DNA of 64,000 bases from Clostridium rhizosphaerae (GTDB lineage Bacteria > Bacillota > Clostridia > Clostridiales > Clostridiaceae): contig NZ_JAESWC010000008.1 of the NCBI RefSeq assembly GCF_016765585.1, positions 1 to 64,000 on the forward strand, written 5' to 3'. This document shows positions 53,438 through 63,966 of this stretch, one piece after another (within the stretch, counting starts at the first letter, position 1; each line of letters begins with the position of its first letter). Under the pieces are notes generated by a model. The model did no database searches, was not told the DNA's origin, and saw nothing but the letters and a program-made list of their open reading frames with translations. The position numbers and the translations under genes were made by a program.

Positions 53438-54340
53438 ATGAATTATAAACTTACCTATGAAAAACATATTTTTAATTTTAGTAAGAGTAATACCGTCGCA
53501 TTAACAGTCTCTTCTGGAGATAGTATAGAAATAGAAACTATGGACTGTTTTGCAAATCAGCTTACAACTCCAGAAGATAAATTGGAAAGTATGGACTGGG
53601 ATAAAGTAAATCCAGCTTCCGGACCTATATTTATAAGAGAAGCTTTCAAAGGTGATACTCTAAAAGTTACTATTGAAAATATACGTTTAAATAATCAGGG
53701 TGTTATGGCATCTGGAAAAGATTTAGGCGTATTAGGAGATTTATTAGATGGACTTGAGTCAAAACTCATACAAATAGAAAATGGTAAAGCAATTTTTAAT
53801 GACAAGATTTCAATACCTCTAAATCCTATAATTGGGGTCATTGGAGTTGCCCCTGAAAACGAAGCTGTAAACTGCGGCACACCTGGAACTCATGGCGGAA
53901 ACATGGACAATACTATGATAGTTGAAGGAGCAGTATTATATCTTCCGATATTCGTTGATGGCGCTTTATTTGCTCTTGGAGACTTACATGCAGTAATGGG
54001 AGATAGTGAAATTGGTGTTACTGGAATTGAAATTGCTGGAACTGTGAAAGTAAAACTTGACGTTATAAAAAATTTAATAATTGAAACTCCAATGCTTGAA
54101 AACAACGATTATTTTTCTACTATTGCCTCCTCACAAACCCTTGACGATGCAGTAGCCGACTGCACAAAACATATGTTTATGCTGCTTTCTAAAAAGCTTG
54201 AAATTCCTAAGCATGAACTTGTGATGCTACTGAGTGTTGTTGGACATACTCAGATATGTCAGGTAGTTGACCCATTGAAGACTGCTAGATTTATAATGCC
54301 TAAATGGGTACTTGAAAAATATAAGTTTAATATATATTAA
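53438..54340 (+). CDS. Acetamidase/formamidase family protein
   Basis: A 300-residue FmdA/AmdA-family amidase hydrolysing small amides to acid and ammonia. Diagnostic segments are IEMDC-like IEIETMDCFANQL, NPASGPIFIREAFKGDTLKVTIE, GTPGTHGGNMDNTMI and LFALGDLHAVMGDSEIGVTGIE, which hold the metal-binding and catalytic residues. ATG 53438 follows GGGGGAA; the upstream TTG overlaps that site. A single gene. Length is typical of the short Firmicute form. The true substrate is not known. Confidence 0.88.
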   Translation: MNYKLTYEKHIFNFSKSNTVALTVSSGDSIEIETMDCFANQLTTPEDKLESMDWDKVNPASGPIFIREAFKGDTLKVTIENIRLNNQGVMASGKDLGVLGDLLDGLESKLIQIENGKAIFNDKISIPLNPIIGVIGVAPENEAVNCGTPGTHGGNMDNTMIVEGAVLYLPIFVDGALFALGDLHAVMGDSEIGVTGIEIAGTVKVKLDVIKNLIIETPMLENNDYFSTIASSQTLDDAVADCTKHMFMLLSKKLEIPKHELVMLLSVVGHTQICQVVDPLKTARFIMPKWVLEKYKFNIY

Positions 54341-54382
54341 TCCAATTAAAGCCTCCTTAATCTTAAGGAGGCTTTAATTGGA
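54341..54382. terminator. Bidirectional terminator after the acetamidase gene
   Basis: Perfect 20-bp stem, TCCAATTAAAGCCTCCTTAA and its reverse complement, with a 2-base loop, between convergent genes. One of the strongest hairpins in the window. Confidence 0.9.
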
Positions 54383-54417
54383 TATTTTAATAAGCTTCTA
54401 AAAATAATAGCTTATAT

Positions 54418-55512
54418 CTATTTTGTTTTAATAAATCCAAAAAGATATTCAGGTTTTAATAAATCCAGTAAAATCAGATCCTGTTCTGCTATTCTGCCTA
54501 CAAAGTTTCTTTCACCATCATTAGGCATATCCCTTGAAATTATTTCTAACTCACCTCTATAGTGGGATAAGTTATCATTCACTATAACTATATCACCTCT
54601 ATGAAATAGCTTTTCATTATATTTACGATATGGGATTATCTTATTTCTATAACTTCCTCTTGGCATGCTGCTGCGTACCATAAAGTCCGAAGCATCACCT
54701 CTGCCAAAGTGAGGATAATTATATATGATATTTTTTTCTTCCACAGTAATATTATCAGCCAGATTAACTCTAAAGGTTATCTTAGATTTATCAACCTCTG
54801 ATACTGCTTTTAGTTCCTCTTCTGCTGCATAGGCATTACCTATTATGATATCATCTATTTTGTTAGTAGCAAGCAGATGCCTGGCTTGTAAATCTATAGG
54901 AAGTTCTCGATGAATTTCACAAGTAGGCAATCCTTTATATACAGGCCAAGGTCCAAAGGTGTCTTCATTATTGCTGGATATAAAGGCAGCAACGGGAAGT
55001 CCTAAGCTTTTATACTTATTAGTAAATTCCATAAATTTATTCCATCCAAGTCCCGTATATTTCTGCGGGTAAAAATTATGACAAACTATCATGTTATGAA
55101 TATTTGCACCTCTTTCAATCATCAAGTCCAAAGCTGCGTTGGTGCTTCCGTTGAACTCAATTTGAATTCCATATGGATTATGAGTTATTGCTATATCCTC
55201 AATTTCACCAAAATGCCCATCAAGGCGAACAATATCTACCTTCATATCACTGAATGGCTTTAGATCATATGGCGTAGCTCCTAAATGTGAAAAAACTTCT
55301 GGATTAGTGTCTACAGCTACTATAAACCCAAGCTCATGCGCTTGTTTCATAAATCTCGTAAATTTTTCTATAATAAATTCTTTTGTTTCCTTAACTGATA
55401 GTAAACAGGTAAAAATACGTGAAAATCCATATTTTGATGCCAATTTCATGTATTCATAGTCCTTCTCCTCTGTTGAATGTTCAGGATAAATAGAAATACC
55501 TAATCTATGCAT
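54418..55512 (-). CDS. DUF871 family protein, MupG-like phospho-glycosidase
   Basis: A 364-residue protein: N-terminal TIM barrel (about 1-240; RLGISIYPEHS, VDTNPEVFSHLG, VRLDGHFG) and C-terminal cyclophilin-like domain. Staphylococcus MupG of this family hydrolyses the 6-phospho-MurNAc-GlcNAc disaccharide made by a PTS. Here it ends an operon of glycosylasparaginase, M20 peptidase and CutC genes, downstream of a PTS, fitting a role on an internally phosphorylated disaccharide. No murQ etherase gene is visible. The start is ATG 55512 or GTG 55518; a longer ATG overlaps AAAGGAAG. Confidence 0.85.
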   Translation of the reverse strand: MHRLGISIYPEHSTEEKDYEYMKLASKYGFSRIFTCLLSVKETKEFIIEKFTRFMKQAHELGFIVAVDTNPEVFSHLGATPYDLKPFSDMKVDIVRLDGHFGEIEDIAITHNPYGIQIEFNGSTNAALDLMIERGANIHNMIVCHNFYPQKYTGLGWNKFMEFTNKYKSLGLPVAAFISSNNEDTFGPWPVYKGLPTCEIHRELPIDLQARHLLATNKIDDIIIGNAYAAEEELKAVSEVDKSKITFRVNLADNITVEEKNIIYNYPHFGRGDASDFMVRSSMPRGSYRNKIIPYRKYNEKLFHRGDIVIVNDNLSHYRGELEIISRDMPNDGERNFVGRIAEQDLILLDLLKPEYLFGFIKTK

Positions 55513-55541
55513 TTTAACACTACTTCCTTTCAATATTATAT

Positions 55542-56288
55542 TTATTGATGAATAATTTTAACCAGTTCTTCCACAACCCTTGAATCTACTGTATCATAAG
55601 AAAAATCATCATTAGCATAAGCATAACTCACATGGTTTTTTGTTGTAGTTTTATCCTTAAGCCATGACTTGCATGAACTATGAATTTGAGTAATTCCTGT
55701 GTAATCCATTATTTTTTTTGCATTTTCAGTATTTATTCCACTTCCGGCCAATATTTCAATTTCACTTCCATAATCCTTCTGCAAGTTTTTTAATAATTCC
55801 ATTCCTTGTTCAGCCTTGGGTTCTAAGCCACTAGTAAGAATACGATCTACACCTAAACCAATTAAATTTTCAACCGATTTAAATGGATTGTTGACACAAT
55901 CAAAGGCCCTATGAAATACTACTTCCTTTTCCTTACCATATGATTTAATTGTATCAACTACTTCTTTAATCTGTGAAACATTAATATCTCCGCTCTCCTC
56001 CAAACAGCCAAAGGCAATTCCATCTGCTCCATACTCTAGCATTACCTTAATATCTAATAAAAGTATTTCAAAATATTCCTTGTTATAGTAAAAGCCTGCT
56101 CCTCTAGGCCTTGACATACAAATAACCTTTAAGTCAGTATTCTTTTTAGTCAAAATGAGATTTGCAATACTTGGAGTTAATCCTCCCATATACAAAGCAC
56201 TATTTAATTCCACTCTATCTGCTTTTCCTTTATATGCCTGAATACAGTCATAATAGCTCCCACAGCATATTTCTACTATCTTATTCAC
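55542..56288 (-). CDS. cutC: CutC family protein
   Basis: A 248-residue TIM-barrel protein of the CutC family, with the conserved EICCGSYYDCIQA, KADRVELNSALYMGGLTPS and VICMSRPRGAGFYY segments. CutC is named for copper homeostasis, but its biochemical activity is disputed and it often sits among sugar catabolism genes, as here. The GTG at 56288 is favoured: AGGTG lies 6 bp before it and it overlaps the M20 stop (GTGAATAA), giving coupling. The GTG at 56297 is too close to that site. Confidence 0.88.
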   Translation of the reverse strand: MNKIVEICCGSYYDCIQAYKGKADRVELNSALYMGGLTPSIANLILTKKNTDLKVICMSRPRGAGFYYNKEYFEILLLDIKVMLEYGADGIAFGCLEESGDINVSQIKEVVDTIKSYGKEKEVVFHRAFDCVNNPFKSVENLIGLGVDRILTSGLEPKAEQGMELLKNLQKDYGSEIEILAGSGINTENAKKIMDYTGITQIHSSCKSWLKDKTTTKNHVSYAYANDDFSYDTVDSRVVEELVKIIHQ

Positions 56289-57399
56289 TAGCTTCACCTG
56301 CCAATTTTATTAAACTTAGTGCATAAATCTTTGCATTCATCACAATATCTTTAGTATCCATCCACTCGTTTGGATTATGTCCTATTCCTTTTTGCCCTGG
56401 AAAACTTGGGCCAAATGGGACAATATTAGGCATCACTTTTGCATAGGTACCACCTGTAGTAGTTACTGGCGTACCATCAAAACCTGTTACCTCTTCATAG
56501 GCTTCCTTGAGTTTCCTTATCAAAATACAATCTTTTTCAAACCTTACAGGTTCGTAGTTATGAATCAATTCTAAGGCTAATTTTTCAGGCATCTTGGTTT
56601 TTATTTGCATAATAATTTTTGAAATAGTCACATTTGCAGGATAGCTTAAAGTAAAATCAAATATACATTTGTCTTTTTCCATACTTAATTCATATCCACG
56701 CATCTGCATTTTCCCAAATTCCTCGTCGGAGAAATCGATACCTAATAGCTCTCCATTATCTTTGCTTTGCAAAAAGTACTTGGTCACAAAGCTAAAAAAT
56801 TCATTTAAATCTGATTTGTTAGCTTTTACCATGAGCTTAGCTCTGCCTCTTTCACCATAAACAACAGGATATTTGCAATCTGGTGTCCATCCCATGATTG
56901 GAGGTTTCTCATATTTTAAATAATGTTCAACATCCTTCATTCCTGTTTCTTCATTAGTTCCAAATATGATACGAATTGACTTATTAAATTTAACCCCACA
57001 CTGTTTGCAGGCATATAAAGCATATAAACATGACATAATTGGGCCTTTATTATCTAATATTCCTCTTGAATATATTCTTTCATCTTTACAATATCCGCTA
57101 AAAGGAGGATGAATCCATCCTTCTCCGGCTGGAACAACATCTAAGTGTCCTATGATTCCTATATAATCGCTTCCTTCTCCTAATTGAGCATAACCAGCAT
57201 ATCCATCTAAGTTTTTTATTTGAAATCCAAGCCTATAGGCAATTTCCAATACTTTTATCAAGCAATCGCTAATTCCTTTTCCAAAAGGCATTCCTTGAAG
57301 AGTCTCACCTGCAACACTATTAATTTTGACTATATCTATAATGTCTGTAATCATCTCTTCCTTTAATTCATCAATTTTTTTAAAAACAGTATCTCTCAC
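56281..57399 (-). CDS. M20 family peptidase, PepV-like but short
   Basis: A 372-residue di-zinc peptidase. Metal ligands and base are visible: H85 and D87 in IGHLDVVPAGEG, D116 in RGILDNKGP, the E150-E151 pair in FGTNEETGMKD, D174 in WTPDCKYP, and a histidine in GIGHNPNEWM. PepV/Sapep dipeptidases are about 460-470 residues; this lacks roughly 90, mostly in the lid/dimerisation domain, which should alter substrate range. Start is GTG 57399 with GGTGAGG at good spacing. It lies 7 bp after the glycosylasparaginase gene. Confidence 0.87.
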   Translation of the reverse strand: MRDTVFKKIDELKEEMITDIIDIVKINSVAGETLQGMPFGKGISDCLIKVLEIAYRLGFQIKNLDGYAGYAQLGEGSDYIGIIGHLDVVPAGEGWIHPPFSGYCKDERIYSRGILDNKGPIMSCLYALYACKQCGVKFNKSIRIIFGTNEETGMKDVEHYLKYEKPPIMGWTPDCKYPVVYGERGRAKLMVKANKSDLNEFFSFVTKYFLQSKDNGELLGIDFSDEEFGKMQMRGYELSMEKDKCIFDFTLSYPANVTISKIIMQIKTKMPEKLALELIHNYEPVRFEKDCILIRKLKEAYEEVTGFDGTPVTTTGGTYAKVMPNIVPFGPSFPGQKGIGHNPNEWMDTKDIVMNAKIYALSLIKLAGEASE

Positions 57400-57406
57400 T
57401 TCAACC

Positions 57407-58363
57407 TCACCTTCTAACTAATGGTGCAGTTCTGGTTTTCATATAATTATCCAGCCATTCACTGTTTGCTTTTTCATGAATACATTTACCATTTATATTT
57501 TTTGCTAAGTAGATTATTGGCTCCTGATGCTCGGTAGTCACAACAAACGAGAATCCTTCGATGTTAGTTGCAACTCCCCACTCACCTTTATTGTTCATAG
57601 CTATTAATGATAAGTCCCCTGATTTCCCTCTTCTTTCCTTAAGTTCTTTATCAAGCCTGTTTACAGCAATTTCACAGGCCTCCTGAGGGTGATGACCTTC
57701 TTTCATTAAACGAACAATCTCGTAAGAAATGCATCCCTTCATTAAGTCTTCACCTAACCCTGTTGCACTAGCTCCCCCTACTTTAGAATCCACATAAAAG
57801 CCTGAGCCAGAAATTGGGGAATCACCAACTCGTCCCTTTTTCTTCATAAACAAACCACTAGTTGAAGTGGCAGCAATCATATTACCTCTTTTATCAAGAC
57901 CTACCATGCCTACTGTATCATGTCCGCTGTAAGGTTTAATTTCTTGTTCCTTTATCTCTTTAATACGATTATAATAGTGAATTTTTGCACGTTCAGTCAG
58001 CATATTTTTGCGCTGAAAGCCCTCTTTATGAGCAAATCTTTCTGCACCTTCTGCAACCAATAGATTATTCACTTTTTCTTTGCTTAATCGTCTTGCTATA
58101 CTAATAGGATTAGCATAATCCTTAATTGCAGCAACAGCTCCAATATCTAAGGTAGTTCCATCCATATATGCCGCATCTAATTCTACCTCCATATCTTCAT
58201 TAGGAAGCCCTCCATAGCCTACAGATTTATAAAATTCAAAATCTTCTACTTCTCTGATTGCATTTTCAATCGCATCTCCTGCAAATCCCCCATCTTCTAA
58301 AATTTCCCTTCCTGCTGTAATGCCCTCAAAAGCCATACGCCAAGTTGCAATTATCCCATACAT
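57407..58363 (-). CDS. N4-(beta-N-acetylglucosaminyl)-L-asparaginase (Ntn hydrolase T2)
   Basis: A 318-residue amidohydrolase that cleaves the GlcNAc-Asn bond or a similar beta-aspartyl amide. The autocleavage site is present as GHDTVG with nucleophile T150, which would split it into alpha and beta subunits. Residues of the substrate pocket include GRVGDSPISGSGFYVDS and GGASATGLGEDLMKG. It has no signal peptide, so it acts on an imported substrate, unlike the periplasmic Elizabethkingia enzyme. It heads a four-gene operon downstream of the PTS. GTAG-type isoaspartyl peptidases are related and cannot be fully excluded. Confidence 0.87.
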   Translation of the reverse strand: MYGIIATWRMAFEGITAGREILEDGGFAGDAIENAIREVEDFEFYKSVGYGGLPNEDMEVELDAAYMDGTTLDIGAVAAIKDYANPISIARRLSKEKVNNLLVAEGAERFAHKEGFQRKNMLTERAKIHYYNRIKEIKEQEIKPYSGHDTVGMVGLDKRGNMIAATSTSGLFMKKKGRVGDSPISGSGFYVDSKVGGASATGLGEDLMKGCISYEIVRLMKEGHHPQEACEIAVNRLDKELKERRGKSGDLSLIAMNNKGEWGVATNIEGFSFVVTTEHQEPIIYLAKNINGKCIHEKANSEWLDNYMKTRTAPLVRR

Positions 58364-58457
58364 ATTATATTACTCCTTCACATATAAAATTAACTTCATG
58401 AAATCGATAATAACTTACTTTCTATTTTATATAATTATAGTTGAATATACTATAATT

Positions 58458-58487
58458 AAAAGAGGATGTTACATAACACCCCCTTTT
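58458..58487 (-). terminator. Terminator after the GrdB-like gene
   Basis: Minus-strand stem AAAAGGGGGTGTTA/TAACATCCTCTTTT (G-U pairs allowed) followed by AATTATAG. The promoter of the glycosylasparaginase operon must lie between here and 58363. Confidence 0.65.
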
Positions 58488-58491
58488 AATT

Positions 58492-59019
58492 TTAGAAGCA
58501 AATCTGACTAATTAATGATGTAACATTCTCTTTACTAAATAATGCTTTAGCTAATTTGCACATATTGTTTAACGAGTCATTTAGACCTATTCCGCCTTTT
58601 TTAGGAGTAACTACAATATTTACTTTATCTTTAAATTCGCATATTGTTTCCTCGTTCTCAGCAGACATGGCTGCAAAAGCTGGAATATTTACCGTTTTGT
58701 TTATATCATAGGCTACTTTTGCTGCCATACTAGCATAGTCTTTATAATTAAGAGCCGGGCCACATATTACTACATCAGGATGCAGCTTATTTACCATGGC
58801 ACAAAGCTTTCTTGACACCTCCTCAGGATCAGCTAAATATGTACCATTCCCGCAATAAAGGCAAGCGATTACCTTACCGTCGATTTGTTTAAGGAATGGT
58901 TCCATCATAATCGCTGGACCCAAAGGTTCCCTTTTAGCACCTAGTGGTATCATCTTGTCATCTTTAGTGCCTGCACCCGCTTGTATTTGATCATAAATCA
59001 TTATGATTTTAATAGCCAT
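58492..59019 (-). CDS. Stand-alone protein resembling the N terminus of glycine reductase component B (GrdB)
   Basis: A 175-residue protein whose segment order follows the N-terminal half of GrdB-type subunits: GAGTKDD (cf. GGIGGEE), EPLGPAIMM (cf. GPVGPG), IACLYCGNGTYL (cf. VCGDNYF), VICGPALNYKDYASMA (cf. AGPAFNAGRYG), VNIPAFAAMSAENEE (cf. IPAVTGMYEENPG). The selenocysteine-containing C-terminal half is absent; the gene ends in TAA, not UGA. It is the last gene of the PTS operon (13-bp gap). A reductase role cannot be inferred without the rest of the complex. Confidence 0.65.
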   Translation of the reverse strand: MAIKIIMIYDQIQAGAGTKDDKMIPLGAKREPLGPAIMMEPFLKQIDGKVIACLYCGNGTYLADPEEVSRKLCAMVNKLHPDVVICGPALNYKDYASMAAKVAYDINKTVNIPAFAAMSAENEETICEFKDKVNIVVTPKKGGIGLNDSLNNMCKLAKALFSKENVTSLISQICF

Positions 59020-59032
59020 TTGAAATCATCTC

Positions 59033-60403
59033 CTATAGGTCATCGAATGATAAATTCTCCAAAGAATCATCATCATCTTCCTCAGTTGCTTTAGCCTCTT
59101 CATTTATATATTGCTTATCCATAATTTTAATAAATGGCATGTATATGAATACTCCTAGTATTAATAATGCGGCTTGAAGCAGGGCACCTACCCAGTTTGT
59201 TGCTAAGAAACCAGAAATAATTATTGGAGTTGTCCATGGAATATTAACACCATTACAAATTGGGACTAATTTTAGACTCATTGCAACATACGAAATAATT
59301 ATATTTAAAGTTGGTACTAACATAAATGGAATCAACATTGTTGGATTCAATACTATAGGTAAACCAAATACTATTGGTTCATTTATTCCAAATATCCCTG
59401 GTACTAAAGCTAATTTACCAAGTTCTTTAATTCGTTTTGATTTACAGAAAAATATCATAGCAATTAATAGTGATAATGTAGAACCGCATCCTCCGAACGT
59501 AGCAAATAAATCTTGGAATTGTTGAGAAATAATATGGCCTTGACCAACACCGGTTTTGAAAAATTCCAAGTTTTCAGCAGTTAGTGTCTGAAGAATCGGA
59601 TTATATACTGCACCTACTACAGAACCACCATTTACTCCAAAGAACCAGAATAAATGAAGGAAAATATACGCTGTAATCATTGCTCCTAATGTATCACCTA
59701 AATTCATTAACGGTAGTTGCAAGAACTTAAATACAATTGTGAAAACATCTGTTTTAAAAAATCCGAAAAACAAATTAATAACAAAGAATACAGTTATAAC
59801 CAAGCCAGCAGGTATTAAAGCTGCAAATGATTGTACAACAGTTGGTGGAACACCTGCAGGCATTTTAATTATCCAGCCTTTGCGTTCAGCAAAGGAATAA
59901 ATATGAACAGCTAAGAAGGCAGAAATAATACCAATAAATATTCCTTTTGCTCCAACCCATCCAAGTGGAAGACCTCCTCCTAAAAATACCTGAACTGGAT
60001 CTGAAACACCTTTAATCTGCACTTTTCCTGTCACACCATAAGGCATAATTAAAAACCAAGCCATAATAGATACTGCAGCTCCAAAAATTGGGTTTGTTTT
60101 CATTTGCTTAGCAAATGAGTATCCTATACCAAGCACTGCAAATATCGCCATAATTGAAAATGTTGCATCAGCAGGCTTTCCAAAATAAGCTGCTAATGTA
60201 GATCCATTTATTTTTACAGACTCTAACCAATTAGTCCATGCAGGAATTGGGAAATTAGCAATTAATAAAAACAATGACCCTACAATTAATAATGGTGTAG
60301 ATACTAAAAAACCATCACGTATAGAAATCAAATATTTATTTTTGCCAATGGATTCAGCTAATGGCATTAAAACTTTTTCTAACCACTTAAGCATACTTTT
60401 CAC
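59033..60403 (-). CDS. PTS lactose/cellobiose-class transporter subunit IIC
   Basis: A 456-residue permease with about ten helices of the Lac/Cel (lichenan) class. Hallmarks are the N-terminal WLEKVLMPLAESIGKNKYLISIRDGFLVSTPLLIVGS, split here as LMPLAESIGKN and LISIRDGFL, HLFWFFGVNGG, GCGSTLSLLIAM and FGINEPIVFGLPIVLNP. It ends in an acidic tail (EEDDDDSLENLSFDDL). Sugar specificity cannot be read; the class carries beta-glucosides, chitobiose, lactose and others. It follows subunit IIB by 5 bp. Confidence 0.93.
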   Translation of the reverse strand: MKSMLKWLEKVLMPLAESIGKNKYLISIRDGFLVSTPLLIVGSLFLLIANFPIPAWTNWLESVKINGSTLAAYFGKPADATFSIMAIFAVLGIGYSFAKQMKTNPIFGAAVSIMAWFLIMPYGVTGKVQIKGVSDPVQVFLGGGLPLGWVGAKGIFIGIISAFLAVHIYSFAERKGWIIKMPAGVPPTVVQSFAALIPAGLVITVFFVINLFFGFFKTDVFTIVFKFLQLPLMNLGDTLGAMITAYIFLHLFWFFGVNGGSVVGAVYNPILQTLTAENLEFFKTGVGQGHIISQQFQDLFATFGGCGSTLSLLIAMIFFCKSKRIKELGKLALVPGIFGINEPIVFGLPIVLNPTMLIPFMLVPTLNIIISYVAMSLKLVPICNGVNIPWTTPIIISGFLATNWVGALLQAALLILGVFIYMPFIKIMDKQYINEEAKATEEDDDDSLENLSFDDL

Positions 60404-60408
60404 CTCTT

Positions 60409-60732
60409 CTATTTATTTGCTGATTTAATTAATTTCACTGCAGTTTTTAAAACCTTTTTAGCATTCATCATGCCATAATCAGTAGGATCAATGACTGCAA
60501 TAGGAATTCCCATTGCTCCAAAATCGTTTACAGTCTTTTCATACAAGTATTTAACTTGTGGTCCAAGTAAAATACAATCTGGATGAAGTGTTTTTATGAT
60601 TTCGTCTAATTCATTGTGCGGAAAAGCCTTAACTTCAACTGGTAATGAATTTTCATCAGCAGCTGTTTGCATTTTACTTGCTAGTATACTTGTTGACATC
60701 CCTGCACTGCAAAATAAATAAATTTTCTTCAT
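60409..60732 (-). CDS. PTS lactose/cellobiose-class subunit IIB
   Basis: A 107-residue phosphocarrier. The phosphorylated cysteine C8 lies in IYLFCSAGMSTSILA, the P-loop of this class; LGPQVKYLYE and IPIAVIDPTDYGMMNA complete the pattern. It transfers phosphate from IIA to the incoming sugar. Cytoplasmic. The ribosome binding site is GGGGGAG-like. Confidence 0.95.
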   Translation of the reverse strand: MKKIYLFCSAGMSTSILASKMQTAADENSLPVEVKAFPHNELDEIIKTLHPDCILLGPQVKYLYEKTVNDFGAMGIPIAVIDPTDYGMMNAKKVLKTAVKLIKSANK

Positions 60733-60786
60733 AAATCTCCCCCCTTTCCCCTATTTATTGCATTACTATTAAATAATTTATAAGAT

Positions 60787-61110
60787 TTACTTATTTTCTA
60801 AATTAAAAATTCTCTCATAAGTTTCGATTAACTCAGTCGCTAAAATTTTACAAGTTTCAACTGACATTAACTGATCTTCTGCATGAAGCAATAACAAGTT
60901 AGGAGTAACTTGTCCATCATTTGCTTCCTGCTGTATTAGTTTAGCATGTGAGTTATGTCCTTGATTAAAATATGCTTCACCTTCACTGATGCAGGTTTCA
61001 GCCTTTTTGAAATTGCCTTTCTTAGCTTCTTTAATTGCCTCGATAAAGCTGTTTTTAGCCATACCTGCTGAAGATATAATTTGAAAACAGGATAATTCTA
61101 ATCCCTCCAT
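60787..61110 (-). CDS. PTS lactose/cellobiose-class subunit IIA
   Basis: A 107-residue all-helical trimeric phosphocarrier. The phosphorylated histidine is H76 in LLLLHAEDQLMS, with the metal-binding aspartate beside it; the N terminus ELSCFQIISSAGMAKNSFIEA is standard. It is the first gene of the PTS operon, preceded by a GGGAGGG site, a TATAAT -10 and a palindrome shared with the regulator promoter. Confidence 0.95.
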   Translation of the reverse strand: MEGLELSCFQIISSAGMAKNSFIEAIKEAKKGNFKKAETCISEGEAYFNQGHNSHAKLIQQEANDGQVTPNLLLLHAEDQLMSVETCKILATELIETYERIFNLENK

Positions 61111-61131
61111 AGCTGTCCCTCCCTTCTTGTA

Positions 61132-61137
61132 ATTATA
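61132..61137 (-). promoter_or_regulatory. Predicted -10 of the PTS operon
   Basis: Perfect minus-strand TATAAT. The hexamer 17 bp upstream is ATAACC, a poor -35, which fits an activator-dependent promoter with the palindrome centred ~49 bp upstream of the -10. Confidence 0.5.
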
Positions 61138-61174
61138 GTATATACTCTTTATGAGGTTATGGACTTTACTATCC

Positions 61175-61192
61175 TTTCCTACTATTAGGAAG
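61175..61192. promoter_or_regulatory. Candidate operator of the PRD regulator, PTS copy
   Basis: Palindrome TTCCTACTATTAGGAA (61176-61191) upstream of the PTS operon and overlapping the end of the RDD gene. It matches 15 of 16 positions of the palindrome upstream of the regulator gene. Confidence 0.6.
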
Positions 61193-61775
61193 CATTATTA
61201 ACACATATTACTTTGGTGTTAGAAATCAAATCATGTATAGCTTTTTGATCTTTTCTAAATATAACAAATATTCCTGATAAAACACTTATTACAATACCCA
61301 CATACATTAGTGGGGTAATTAAATTGATATTGGTGATTAGAGATAGTACTTGATGTAATAGATTGCTTGGAAATATTAACGCTCCTTCGATTAAAAGAAT
61401 TCCTATTATTTGCCTAACAAACAACTCTTTAAACATAATGGAATCATATCCTTCTTTAACTATCTTAAAATGACACCATCGTTTTCCTAAGGTTTGTCCA
61501 TTCCAAATCACTAATGGAACAATCATATAATAGAAAAGTGCAAATCCTAATCCTGTGCATCCTGCCAGAATCGCATACTGTTTAGGATATTGAAATAAAT
61601 TTGTGTTTAAATCCTGTGTATTCGTAACTTTCATATATATCAGCACCATTGGCAAAGAAGTAAAAATACTTCCTATATACCAATCAACCATATAAGCAAT
61701 AAATCTTTTCCATGATGGAACTTCTTGTGAAACTGCTAATTTAGTTTCATTAGATGTTTTTATTACCTTTTTCAT
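61185..61775 (-). CDS. RDD family membrane protein
   Basis: A 196-residue protein with four transmembrane helices and the RDD signature: WKRFIAYMVDW, WNGQTLGKRW and KDQKAIHDLISNTKV. RDD proteins are of uncertain function, some proposed in cation or glycan transport. It sits between the PRD regulator (22 bp gap) and the PTS operon, so it may contribute to uptake. Confidence 0.85.
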   Translation of the reverse strand: MKKVIKTSNETKLAVSQEVPSWKRFIAYMVDWYIGSIFTSLPMVLIYMKVTNTQDLNTNLFQYPKQYAILAGCTGLGFALFYYMIVPLVIWNGQTLGKRWCHFKIVKEGYDSIMFKELFVRQIIGILLIEGALIFPSNLLHQVLSLITNINLITPLMYVGIVISVLSGIFVIFRKDQKAIHDLISNTKVICVNNAS

Positions 61776-61797
61776 AATTACACCCTCAATCCTTAAC

Positions 61798-63711
61798 TTA
61801 TTTTAAGACTTCATCCATAAACTCCCTATAGCTATCTGCCTCTAACAACCTGGAAAATTGGTCAGGATCAGAAACCATGTTGCTTAGCCAATCGAAGAAT
61901 ATTTTTAATATTTTATAGTCATCTTTATTGATAGCAAATAGTATTACAAATCGTACTTCATAGTCCCCCCATTTAATTGGCTTATCCATAATTGCAATAC
62001 TCAGCGCTGAATGATTTATTAAAGCCTCATTGAGCCCATGCGGAGTTGCAAATCCATAATCAAAAGATGTTGCAGATATCTTTTCTCTCTGCAGAACGCT
62101 GCTTTTAAAAGCTTCTTCAACGTATCCTTTTTCATACAGGGCATTGCACATCTTTGTAATCAAATCAACATGGTTGTCCACATCTACATGAACGTAAAAA
62201 AATTCTTTCTTAATCAGCTTTAATACCAATAATTTAAAATCATCTTTACATCTAACTTTATCCAATCCATTCAATACCTTGAAAATTTTGTTTTCATCTT
62301 CATAATTAACAAATAAAGAAATCTGCTCTGTTACAATGCGCAAGTTATGCTTCAATGGAAGTGTTGTTAATATCAAATCAGGTTTTAAATCATCAATTGC
62401 TTTTTTCTCAAAGAAACTCATATGCTCAATAATTTCTAAACGTTCTCCGAATCTATTAAGAATCTTTTCTATACACAAATTTGACATAGCCTCATCCCTA
62501 GGATGAATTATAACTACTTTGTATTTATATTTAGAGTTTGCACGAGCATATGCAACTCCTAGATGCAATGCGATAAATGCTATCTCATTTTCACTAATAG
62601 TAATATGAAGCTTTTTCTCAAGTTCTTCACAAGCTCTAACCCCCATTTCAAACACTAAAGGATAGTTATGTTTAATTTCTTGAAGGTACAAATTATCTAT
62701 ATCAACATTATTTCTATACCGCTCTATTAATGCCCTAATATGTGTTTCCAAACCATTTCTTAGTTCACAGTCGCAGCTAAAGTCAACATCAAATGTCTTT
62801 TTTATATCAATGAAAATTTCTGTTAATACTGAGGAAATTGAACAATCACTTTGGCACCGTAATACTTTATCTGTATAAACAGTGCTCCTTCTTCCAAGCA
62901 GCAATAAAGCTAGTAAAACAACCTCATCCTCCACAATGTCAATTCTTATTTCTTTTGCCAGCTTTTCAAAAAATGTTTTTGAAATTTTATATTCAAGACT
63001 AAGTTTTAATTCATCATTATTTCTATCAGTCTTTATATAGTTATGCCGTATGATACGTTCAATTGCAATTCCTATATGCATTATTATCATTGTAAATGTA
63101 AGTTCACGAATGTGATAATGATATTCTTCAAATGTATCCTGCAAAATATCCTTTACCTTGATAAGATTAAAATTTTTATAAAAAGAAGCAATCTTATTTA
63201 GGTTTAAAAAGTTGCCTTTTATTTCACTTTCCAACAACTCTTTATACAATTTACGCTTTTGCTCCTCTGTACCTTCCAAGCTTATATGATTTTTACTCCT
63301 TATAAGCTGTAAACCATCATAAGATTCAATTGTTTTTTTTATCTTTTTAATATCATTATCAATAGAATAGCCTGAAACAAAAACCTTATCCTGTAGTAAT
63401 GTCAGGTTAATTTCATTTCTCTCGAATAATAATTCTTTAATAATGTAGATACATCTCTCTTCAGGAGTCTGAGGAATAATTCCATAAGTCTCTATATCTA
63501 AACTTTGAAAATTATCTTCATTCATTCTATATCCTAATCTTATATTTGACTCAATTAAAACATCTTTATAAAATTCATTAATATGAGAGACATCGCTTCT
63601 AATAGTCCGATCTGATACTCCTAATACCCTTGCCAACTCCTTGCCAATGATCCACCCATTATTATCATGCATATACATAATAATTTTTTCTTGCCTTTTA
63701 TTTAACACCAT
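61798..63711 (-). CDS. PRD-domain transcriptional regulator (BglG/MtlR/LicR type)
   Basis: A 637-residue DNA-binding activator. Domains in order: HTH (about 1-60; LARVLGVSDRTIRSDVSHINEF), a Mga-like helical part, two PTS regulation domains (about 180-290 and 300-405) with histidines in IMHIGIAIERI and FIALHLGVAYAR, an EIIB-like domain (about 410-490) without an obvious phospho-cysteine, and a C-terminal EIIA-Fru-like domain (about 500-635) with the histidine in FATPHGLNEA. It is expected to activate the adjacent PTS operon under PTS phosphorylation control. ATG 63711 follows AGAGGT. Confidence 0.92.
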   Translation of the reverse strand: MVLNKRQEKIIMYMHDNNGWIIGKELARVLGVSDRTIRSDVSHINEFYKDVLIESNIRLGYRMNEDNFQSLDIETYGIIPQTPEERCIYIIKELLFERNEINLTLLQDKVFVSGYSIDNDIKKIKKTIESYDGLQLIRSKNHISLEGTEEQKRKLYKELLESEIKGNFLNLNKIASFYKNFNLIKVKDILQDTFEEYHYHIRELTFTMIIMHIGIAIERIIRHNYIKTDRNNDELKLSLEYKISKTFFEKLAKEIRIDIVEDEVVLLALLLLGRRSTVYTDKVLRCQSDCSISSVLTEIFIDIKKTFDVDFSCDCELRNGLETHIRALIERYRNNVDIDNLYLQEIKHNYPLVFEMGVRACEELEKKLHITISENEIAFIALHLGVAYARANSKYKYKVVIIHPRDEAMSNLCIEKILNRFGERLEIIEHMSFFEKKAIDDLKPDLILTTLPLKHNLRIVTEQISLFVNYEDENKIFKVLNGLDKVRCKDDFKLLVLKLIKKEFFYVHVDVDNHVDLITKMCNALYEKGYVEEAFKSSVLQREKISATSFDYGFATPHGLNEALINHSALSIAIMDKPIKWGDYEVRFVILFAINKDDYKILKIFFDWLSNMVSDPDQFSRLLEADSYREFMDEVLK

Positions 63712-63745
63712 ATTACCTCTTCCCTGAATCATTATTTATATTATT

Positions 63746-63751
63746 ATTATA
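63746..63751 (-). promoter_or_regulatory. Predicted -10 of the regulator gene
   Basis: Minus-strand TATAAT with a poor -35 (GTAAAA at 17 bp), and the palindrome centred ~43 bp upstream. Confidence 0.4.
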
Positions 63752-63760
63752 TATTAACAC

Positions 63761-63778
63761 TTCAGTTATTTTACTGAA
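63761..63778. promoter_or_regulatory. Second palindrome in the regulator promoter
   Basis: TTCAGT-N6-ACTGAA between the TTTTCCTA palindrome and the -10, overlapping the expected -35. It could be a repressor site or a half of a composite operator. Confidence 0.35.
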
Positions 63779-63781
63779 TAA

Positions 63782-63801
63782 TTTTCCTAGTATTAGGAAA
63801 A
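63782..63801. promoter_or_regulatory. Candidate operator of the PRD regulator, autoregulatory copy
   Basis: Perfect palindrome TTTTCCTAGTATTAGGAAAA with 8-bp arms, upstream of the regulator gene. Its core differs at one position from the palindrome before the PTS operon. Confidence 0.6.
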
Positions 63802-63966
63802 GAAAAATAATCTATATACTTATGAGATTGATTATAGTATATTCATTCCATTACATATTAAATTTTCACCAAAAAACTTTCAAAATTAATTTATTTCTTT
63901 CACATGCTGCTTTATCAAAGAAAAACTTATAAACCAATAAGTACGCTCTATAAATAAATTAATAAT

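Follow-up and report, generated by a model that had tools for sequence, protein, structure and literature searches.

A phosphotransferase–glycosylasparaginase island of Clostridium rhizosphaerae and its predicted role in the use of GlcNAc-Asn

What does a clostridium do with a glycosylasparaginase (GA) that is encoded in one island with a sugar phosphotransferase system (PTS)? The question is raised by ten genes of Clostridium rhizosphaerae, located in a stretch of 64,000 nucleotides (assembly GCF_016765585.1, contig NZ_JAESWC010000008.1, positions 1 to 64,000), which we call the window. The ten open reading frames (ORFs) are all intact and lie on the minus strand at 54418-63732. N-acetylglucosaminyl-asparagine (GlcNAc-Asn) is the remnant of N-glycoproteins after the action of endoglycosidases and proteases, and the gene content indicates that the island very probably lets the bacterium import and dismantle this sugar-amino-acid stub. 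A preliminary description, made from the DNA letters alone, gave the same genes, order and single strand but placed the end at 63802, whereas the last gene ends at 63732. It proposed that an amino-acid-linked disaccharide is taken up by a route that had not been described. The whole import of an N-glycan remnant stands, whereas the novelty of the pathway and the obligatory disaccharide do not.

Conserved gene set and its relation to the ega locus

We assigned the ten proteins with Pfam and NCBIfam profiles and used the GrdB-like protein (58492..59019, 175 aa), which matched NF041545 with 250 bits (cut-off 175), to find related loci. In the Clostridia class sample, NF041545 scored above the cut-off in 3 of 391 genomes (G000, G301, and G351); at E ≤ 0.001 it matched 49, the remainder lying below the cut-off and being mainly ORFs of about 350 aa. 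EIIC, EIIB, GA, M20, and CutC genes lie together at one site in each of the three genomes, and MupG was not found within the 19-kb stretch of G301. With the three GrdB-like proteins aligned as the query, a species-genome collection yielded 74 loci, from which four remote relatives without a cluster (L109-L112) were dropped. The 70 remaining loci contain, no further than 9 kb from the GrdB-like gene, EIIC (70), EIIB (65), M20 (62), GA (61), EIIA (55), a relative of the window regulator (54), CutC (52), YitT (36), RDD (35), MupG (30), and M42 peptidase (9) genes; because BLAST was run with a small number of queries and some contigs end early, most of these counts are lower bounds. EIIC is the adjacent listed ORF to the GrdB-like gene in 65 loci, and the order EIIC, GrdB-like, GA, M20, CutC is uninterrupted in 44. 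The 61 loci that combine GA with a Lac/Cel-type PTS, 60 of them with M20, come from 12 named families; all 70 come from 13, with six hosts lacking a named family. The hosts are 68 Bacillota, one Actinomycetota, and one unassigned, and four of the 70 loci are labelled C. difficile and are not independent of one another. These results indicate that the locus is real and widespread and that the set of GA and PTS genes recurs beyond chance, so the association claimed in the preliminary description withstood comparison across genomes. The hosts of GA/PTS loci include Enterocloster, Hungatella, Faecalibacillus, Thomasclavelia, a segmented filamentous bacterium, Peptacetobacter, and the C. difficile-labelled genomes, and a phosphorylating route for GlcNAc-Asn would bear on how gut clostridia live off host glycoproteins.

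We compared the Asparaginase_2 protein of the island (57407..58363, 318 aa) with solved structures. The best match was the glycosylasparaginase 1p4k (206 bits), whereas the best isoaspartyl peptidase scored 128 bits. The Asp-Thr autoprocessing site, with Thr150 as the N-terminal nucleophile (Ntn), and the active-site residues W/T/R/D/T/G are present, their roles being presumably those of the Elizabethkingia glycosylasparaginase. Ten checked residues are retained in 61 of 61 copies (the window and 60 loci), apart from the Trp (60/61, one gap) and the equivalent of T170 (59/61, two variants). The alignment to the solved structure begins at residue 4, which leaves no space for a signal peptide and argues that GA is cytoplasmic, as previously supposed. 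In regards to the downstream M20 dipeptidase (56281..57399), a domain match places it in the Sapep/PepV subfamily; at 372 aa it is about 100 aa shorter than PepV (470 aa), as the preliminary term "short M20" implied. Its metal-ligand positions are retained in 60 of 60 copies (the window and 59 loci), the last His in 59.

EIIA (60787..61110), EIIB (60409..60732), and EIIC (59033..60403) all belong to the Lac/Cel family by Pfam and NCBIfam matches. In an EIIC tree of 75 rows, comprising 66 of the 70 loci (four shorter than 380 aa were omitted) and nine others, the EIICs of GrdB-like/GA loci, including those of Enterococcus, formed a 71-row block against four others with a support of 99. A more careful tree of 44 chosen rows, which covers 33 of the 70 loci, separated a 37-row block of GA/GrdB-like loci from seven other Lac-family EIICs (support 98/93). 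The window EIIC falls among these GA/GrdB-like-linked transporters; its nearest relative is that of locus L040 (86% identity), and it is 54% identical to an Enterococcus raffinosus EIIC adjoining GA. The GAs of the window and E. raffinosus are 58% identical.

The ega locus of Enterococcus faecalis reportedly serves GlcNAc-Asn, to go by the title of Combret et al. 2024, so the earlier statement that no pathway with this gene set had been described must be withdrawn. According to PMC11160706, ega encodes, besides GA and a dipeptidase, EIIB and EIIC of the Lac/Cel type; it also has a pseudogene for a putative oxidoreductase, which in OG1RF appears from its description to be of the GrdB-like family and of which some strains have an intact copy. 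The window likewise has GA, M20 dipeptidase, EIIB, EIIC, and a GrdB-like gene; it adds CutC, GH170, and RDD genes, and EIIA, a component that the passage on ega in that paper does not mention. E. raffinosus and E. gilvus, whose EIICs represented that of E. faecalis in our comparison, carry a minimal form on megaplasmids (GntR, Sapep dipeptidase, GA, IIB, IIC, and IIA), with no CutC, MupG, or GrdB-like gene annotated alongside. This minimal form matches the gene content of ega, which indicates that the core of the route had been described before and that what is new is a clostridial variant extended by GH170 and CutC. We are therefore rather confident, on the strength of these gene comparisons, that the island is a clostridial, extended form of ega for the import and intracellular breakdown of GlcNAc-Asn. 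The asnA2 region of Latilactobacillus curvatus is similar in having GA, GntR, GrdB-like (38% identical to that of the window), EIIC, and Sapep dipeptidase genes, but CutC and GH170 are not beside its GA, and in the tree its EIIC sits on a long branch. For L. sakei, PMC3146418 gives asnA2 as LSA1693, a GntR regulator as LSA1692, and a cellobiose-type EIIC as LSA1690.

A second known system is the alf-2 cluster of Lacticaseibacillus casei (PMC6960285), which also combines a cytoplasmic GA with a PepV-type M20 peptidase. It differs in its MFS permease, fucosidase, GntR regulator, aspartate decarboxylase, and required kinase SugK, and in its substrate, which is Fuc-GlcNAc-Asn; it does not confer growth on GlcNAc-Asn. 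No MFS permease, alpha-fucosidase, or ROK kinase is among the ten window proteins. Moreover, four single-sequence queries (E 1e-5) detected no ROK, BadF, or PfkB-type kinase in the ORFs of the 70 loci, in keeping with phosphorylation of the sugar by the PTS on entry.

From these comparisons we infer the following route. The PTS would import GlcNAc-Asn, and probably short GlcNAc-Asn peptides too, phosphorylating the sugar, so that no sugar kinase would be needed. The M20 dipeptidase, with M42 aminopeptidases in some relatives, would trim flanking amino acids to give the free Asn ends that GA requires. GA would then release aspartate from (6-phospho-)GlcNAc-Asn and leave 1-amino-GlcNAc(-6-phosphate), which would yield GlcNAc-6-phosphate and ammonia, perhaps with the assistance of CutC. 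GlcNAc-6-phosphate would proceed via NagA and NagB, whose genes are both elsewhere in the C. rhizosphaerae genome. As an addition, GH170 would split the phosphorylated outer GlcNAc off chitobiosyl substrates.

Several observations weigh against this interpretation. The PTS type with a GrdB-like gene also occurs apart from GA, which is not nearby in 9 of the 70 loci; one of these (L086) shares a genome with the GA-bearing L087, and the other eight genomes divide into four with GA elsewhere and four without GA anywhere. The seven outside EIICs in the 44-row tree are few and long-branched. The window regulator is of the PRD/EIIA-2 type, whereas that of ega is a GntR protein, which makes the island a variant of ega and not a copy. 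No GH85 endoglycosidase was found in the C. rhizosphaerae genome, so the substrate must come from other organisms or another enzyme. Finally, AsnA2 of Lacticaseibacillus casei cleaves 6-fucosylated GlcNAc-Asn about 80 times more slowly (0.26 µmol/mg/min) than GlcNAc-Asn (20.91 µmol/mg/min), which bears on whether GA would accept a 6-phosphate. In favour of the interpretation, this enzyme, which is taken as intracellular and is processed at Thr, shows that a cytoplasmic GA can cleave GlcNAc-Asn well and the 6-fucosylated form weakly. Its product 1-amino-GlcNAc is reported to be non-metabolisable and unstable at acid pH.

The GH170 enzyme and alternative substrates

The last gene of the island (54418..55533) encodes a GH170 (DUF871/MupG-like) protein with MupG_N and MupG_C domains, a predicted 6-phospho-glycosidase. 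Among 47 DUF871 proteins compared in a tree (one 115-aa fragment was omitted, and Staphylococcus aureus MupG and ChbE were outside the set), it falls in a 37-row block with a support of 100, composed of 28 rows from GA clusters, 3 from GrdB-like loci without GA, and 6 linked to Lac-type PTS. No murQ- or murP-linked row is in this block, and three background rows without a telling neighbour (short loci) fall outside it. A DUF871/GH170 gene also directly follows lactose/cellobiose-type PTS IIA and IIB genes on Borreliella burgdorferi cp26 (L188:4507-5604), where the PTS presumably carries chitobiose. For Lacticaseibacillus paracasei, PMC12791066 describes a cellobiose-type PTS and the GH170 protein ChbE as required for growth on N,N'-diacetylchitobiose. 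These chb genes (chbRCDE and chbBA) differ from the window in lacking GA, M20, CutC, and GrdB-like genes and in having another regulator and a DUF3284 protein (ChbD), of which the ten window proteins include none. The Lac-PTS-linked clade, the Borreliella context, and the role of ChbE make a chitobiose-6P-type glycosidase more likely than a muramidase for the window GH170, which probably adds chitobiosyl substrates to the GlcNAc-Asn core.

In a stricter version, to which the preliminary description inclined, the locus is built for chitobiosyl-Asn and GH170 must act before GA. The genes are in the same unit in the window, its GH170 clade and the chitobiose growth role of ChbE are in line with a disaccharide, and the six changes of the label "in a GA cluster" on the DUF871 tree (gains or losses, five forced by well-supported branches) fit repeated recruitment. 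We nevertheless judge this version unlikely, since GH170 is near GA in only 27 of the 61 loci. The search for MupG-family genes covered 28 of the 34 loci with GA but no nearby MupG; 19 of these genomes have such a gene elsewhere and nine have none. The nine include three metagenome-assembled genomes that are possibly incomplete and the complete C. cadaveris genome (L098), and they indicate that GH170 is not an obligatory step there. The cluster of L040, with the closest EIIC, lacks GH170 (two are elsewhere in its genome), the annotated Enterococcus loci show none, and no kinase was found for the inner GlcNAc. Moreover, EIICs with and without a nearby DUF871 gene are intermixed in a single block, and MupG presence near the PTS switches 12 times across 67 labelled EIIC rows, which indicates that MupG is loosely associated, as a module, with a single type of transporter.

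The breakdown of GlcNAc-Asn by GA would also be in doubt if the asparaginase acted on isoaspartyl peptides or free asparagine. These activities occur in the same Ntn superfamily, and the GAs of three genomes of family f32 and of G057 have no PTS gene detected nearby, so GA alone is no proof of a GlcNAc-Asn system. One of them (L171:7828-9866, G185), 48% identical to the window GA, adjoins an amidohydrolase, with CutC elsewhere in the genome, and may represent another use of GA. For the window protein, such an activity is very improbable in view of the 78 bits by which the glycosylasparaginase match exceeds isoaspartyl peptidases, the conserved GA-type residues, and the coupling to a sugar PTS.

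Recycling of muropeptides (MurNAc-GlcNAc) was suggested by the DUF871 family itself, which was first assigned to MurNAc-6P-GlcNAc. In S. aureus (PMC6262408), the mupG-murQPR locus likewise has a DUF871 enzyme acting on a PTS-phosphorylated disaccharide, there MurNAc-GlcNAc, together with MurQ. In contrast, the window GH170 has no adjoining murQ and forms a clade apart from the murQ/murP-linked DUF871 proteins of Clostridia, and we therefore rejected its identity as MupG proper (6-phospho-N-acetylmuramidase). The genome carries three DUF871 genes: one with MurQ and a MurP-like EIIBC, one with another Lac-type PTS, and that of the window. With a distinct murQ locus, a different DUF871 clade, and no place for GA in the route, muropeptide recycling was rejected as extremely improbable, and the earlier preference for an amino-acid-linked N-glycan remnant over muropeptides was borne out. 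That the PTS simply carries chitobiose or cellobiose, with GA, M20, and CutC next to it by coincidence, deserves hardly any credence, for although the EIIC matches generic cellobiose/lactose models and half of the eight genomes mentioned above are GA-free, the pairing in 61 of 70 loci from 12 named families, the unbroken five-gene order in 44, and the separate PTS and GH170 set without GA in the same genome all speak against it.

Three side observations concern GH170 genes. The Borreliella cp26 product is annotated as an "alpha3-beta1 integrin-binding protein"; by family and context it looks like a 6-phospho-glycosidase. A C. difficile plasmid (L191:2745-11153) may encode a further 6-phospho-glycoside route, since its GH170 gene occurs together with genes for a Lac-type PTS, a sugar kinase, an amidohydrolase, a KDGP aldolase, and a DgaE-like lyase. 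A 1757-aa pullulanase-like protein adjoins the murQ-mupG locus of G000 (contig C6, L037:2587-7860).

CutC as a candidate amino-sugar enzyme

The CutC family, present from bacteria to humans, is named for copper, and its genes occur far beyond the GA/PTS locus. The CutC-family TIM-barrel protein of the island (55542..56297, 251 aa) is encoded by an ORF that overlaps that of M20 by 17 bp. Of the 61 GA loci, 52 have a CutC gene no more than 9 kb from the GrdB-like gene; that of L083 is a weak match in the opposite orientation. In the remaining nine it is elsewhere in the assembly; several of these loci are cut off by a contig edge, and part of these CutC genes could thus be members of the same cluster after all; in L087 CutC adjoins GA just past the 9-kb limit. 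In the class sample, CutC exceeded the cut-off in 34 of 391 genomes, comprising six of the seven with a strong GA match and 28 of the 384 others (Fisher p 1.8e-6; an eighth GA genome with E 6.6e-4 and internal stops was dropped). Leaving out the three GrdB-like clusters, the proportions were 3 of 4 and 28 of 384 (p 0.0018); both p values are indicative only, as the genomes are related. In three of the six class genomes with both genes, GA and CutC lie apart. CutCs encoded in GA loci do not group as a single clade: the label changes six times (gains or losses) in a 72-row tree from which 14 loci were skipped as near-duplicates.

We also examined plasmids, fetching 11 GA regions, one of them unannotated (JZB09), and 13 annotated CutC regions chosen non-randomly among the 40 that were listed out of 67 records. 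Three Hymenobacter plasmids have GA and CutC genes that share 4 bp and lie amid GH92 genes, some with ROK, nagB, GH18, or GH2. Novosphingobium RL4 has GA, a TonB receptor, CutC, and an amidohydrolase inside 10 kb, and in UR115 a distance of 3 kb separates CutC from an Asparaginase_2 gene. Against a link between the two, the GA regions of Persicobacter psychrovividus, Sphingomonas, and Thermomicrobium show no nearby CutC, and by annotation neither do those of two Enterococcus plasmids and L. curvatus. A named amino-sugar, GH20, or GA gene is present in 8 of the 13 CutC regions: the three Hymenobacter, Sinorhizobium, Peteryoungia (GH20 only), Qingshengfaniella (MurQ), Kozakia, and Paracoccus saliphilus. 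The P. seriniphilus region is syntenic with that of P. saliphilus, Asticcacaulis is doubtful, and the Parabacteroides, Salmonella, and Klebsiella regions do not fit an amino-sugar context. No named copper gene is in the shown stretches of the 13 regions, for which the PLSDB tables are incomplete, and the Cys pair of "EICC" is not retained in every cluster copy of CutC. Around 28 CutC genes outside GA clusters in Clostridia, 79 ORFs (two of them CutC itself) pointed to no single pathway, the top family being alpha-L-fucosidase with three. Among open papers we found none that links CutC with glycosylasparaginase, and in PMC3146418 cutC and asnA2 of L. sakei have far-apart locus numbers.

The genomic associations of CutC suggest an amino-sugar enzyme more readily than a copper protein, and we put the chances about even that in these bacteria it is an enzyme of GlcNAc-Asn and amino-sugar catabolism with no part in copper homeostasis. 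A plausible step would be the clearing of the glycosylamine made by GA (1-amino-GlcNAc or its 6-phosphate) or the conversion of another GlcNAc(-6-phosphate) intermediate. CutC is not beside GA in Enterococcus, so it would be an aid and is not proven essential. The association is a new element of the locus and the part most worth an experiment; if the assignment is true, a widely distributed family is misnamed. The locus also offers a testable setting for two under-studied families, with GH170 as a chitobiosyl helper and CutC as an amino-sugar enzyme. As a separate observation, CutC genes of Alphaproteobacteria (L202 Sinorhizobium, L204 Qingshengfaniella, L206 Kozakia, and L207/L208 Paracoccus) lie in nagA/ROK/murQ/GH20 or sugar-ABC loci without GA, and several of them adjoin a ROK or Gfo/Idh gene.

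Transcription units and accessory genes

The 128-bp gap between the GrdB-like and GA genes contains a strong minus-strand hairpin (58425..58500; 16 pairs, fold -21 kcal/mol, z -5.73), a likely terminator or attenuator that is absent from the output of a simple terminator scan. It is consistent with two transcription units, the division made in the preliminary description. A palindromic terminator (54340..54383, not assigned to a strand; 20 pairs, z -8.88) closes the locus. At the other end, domain matches identify the PRD-type regulator (61798..63732, 644 aa; HTH_11, Mga, two PRDs, and EIIA-2) and an RDD-family membrane protein (61185..61775, 196 aa).

The GrdB-like protein aligns only with positions 2-163 of the 347 of the GrdB profile, the N-terminal half; it lacks the C-terminal half and is not a full-length GrdB. 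For its family, the best match among solved structures had an E-value of 0.1, which is not meaningful. In two Thermoanaerobacterium loci (L106 and L108), EIIA, GrdB-like, EIIB, and EIIC genes occur with a divergent regulator, and no GA was found in the genome. This occurrence with EIIC but without GA indicates that the GrdB-like protein probably serves the transporter or its substrate generally. A YitT-family membrane protein (PF02588 and DUF2179; e.g., L058:13503-14375), of which the window cluster has none, usually directly follows CutC in the 36 loci that carry it. The GrdB-like, RDD, and YitT genes are conserved.

In nine loci (L085, L086, L087, L093, L094, L098, L101, L102, and L105), M42 aminopeptidases, frequently as tandem genes, accompany M20 or take its place, which suggests that these loci import glycopeptides and not free GlcNAc-Asn.

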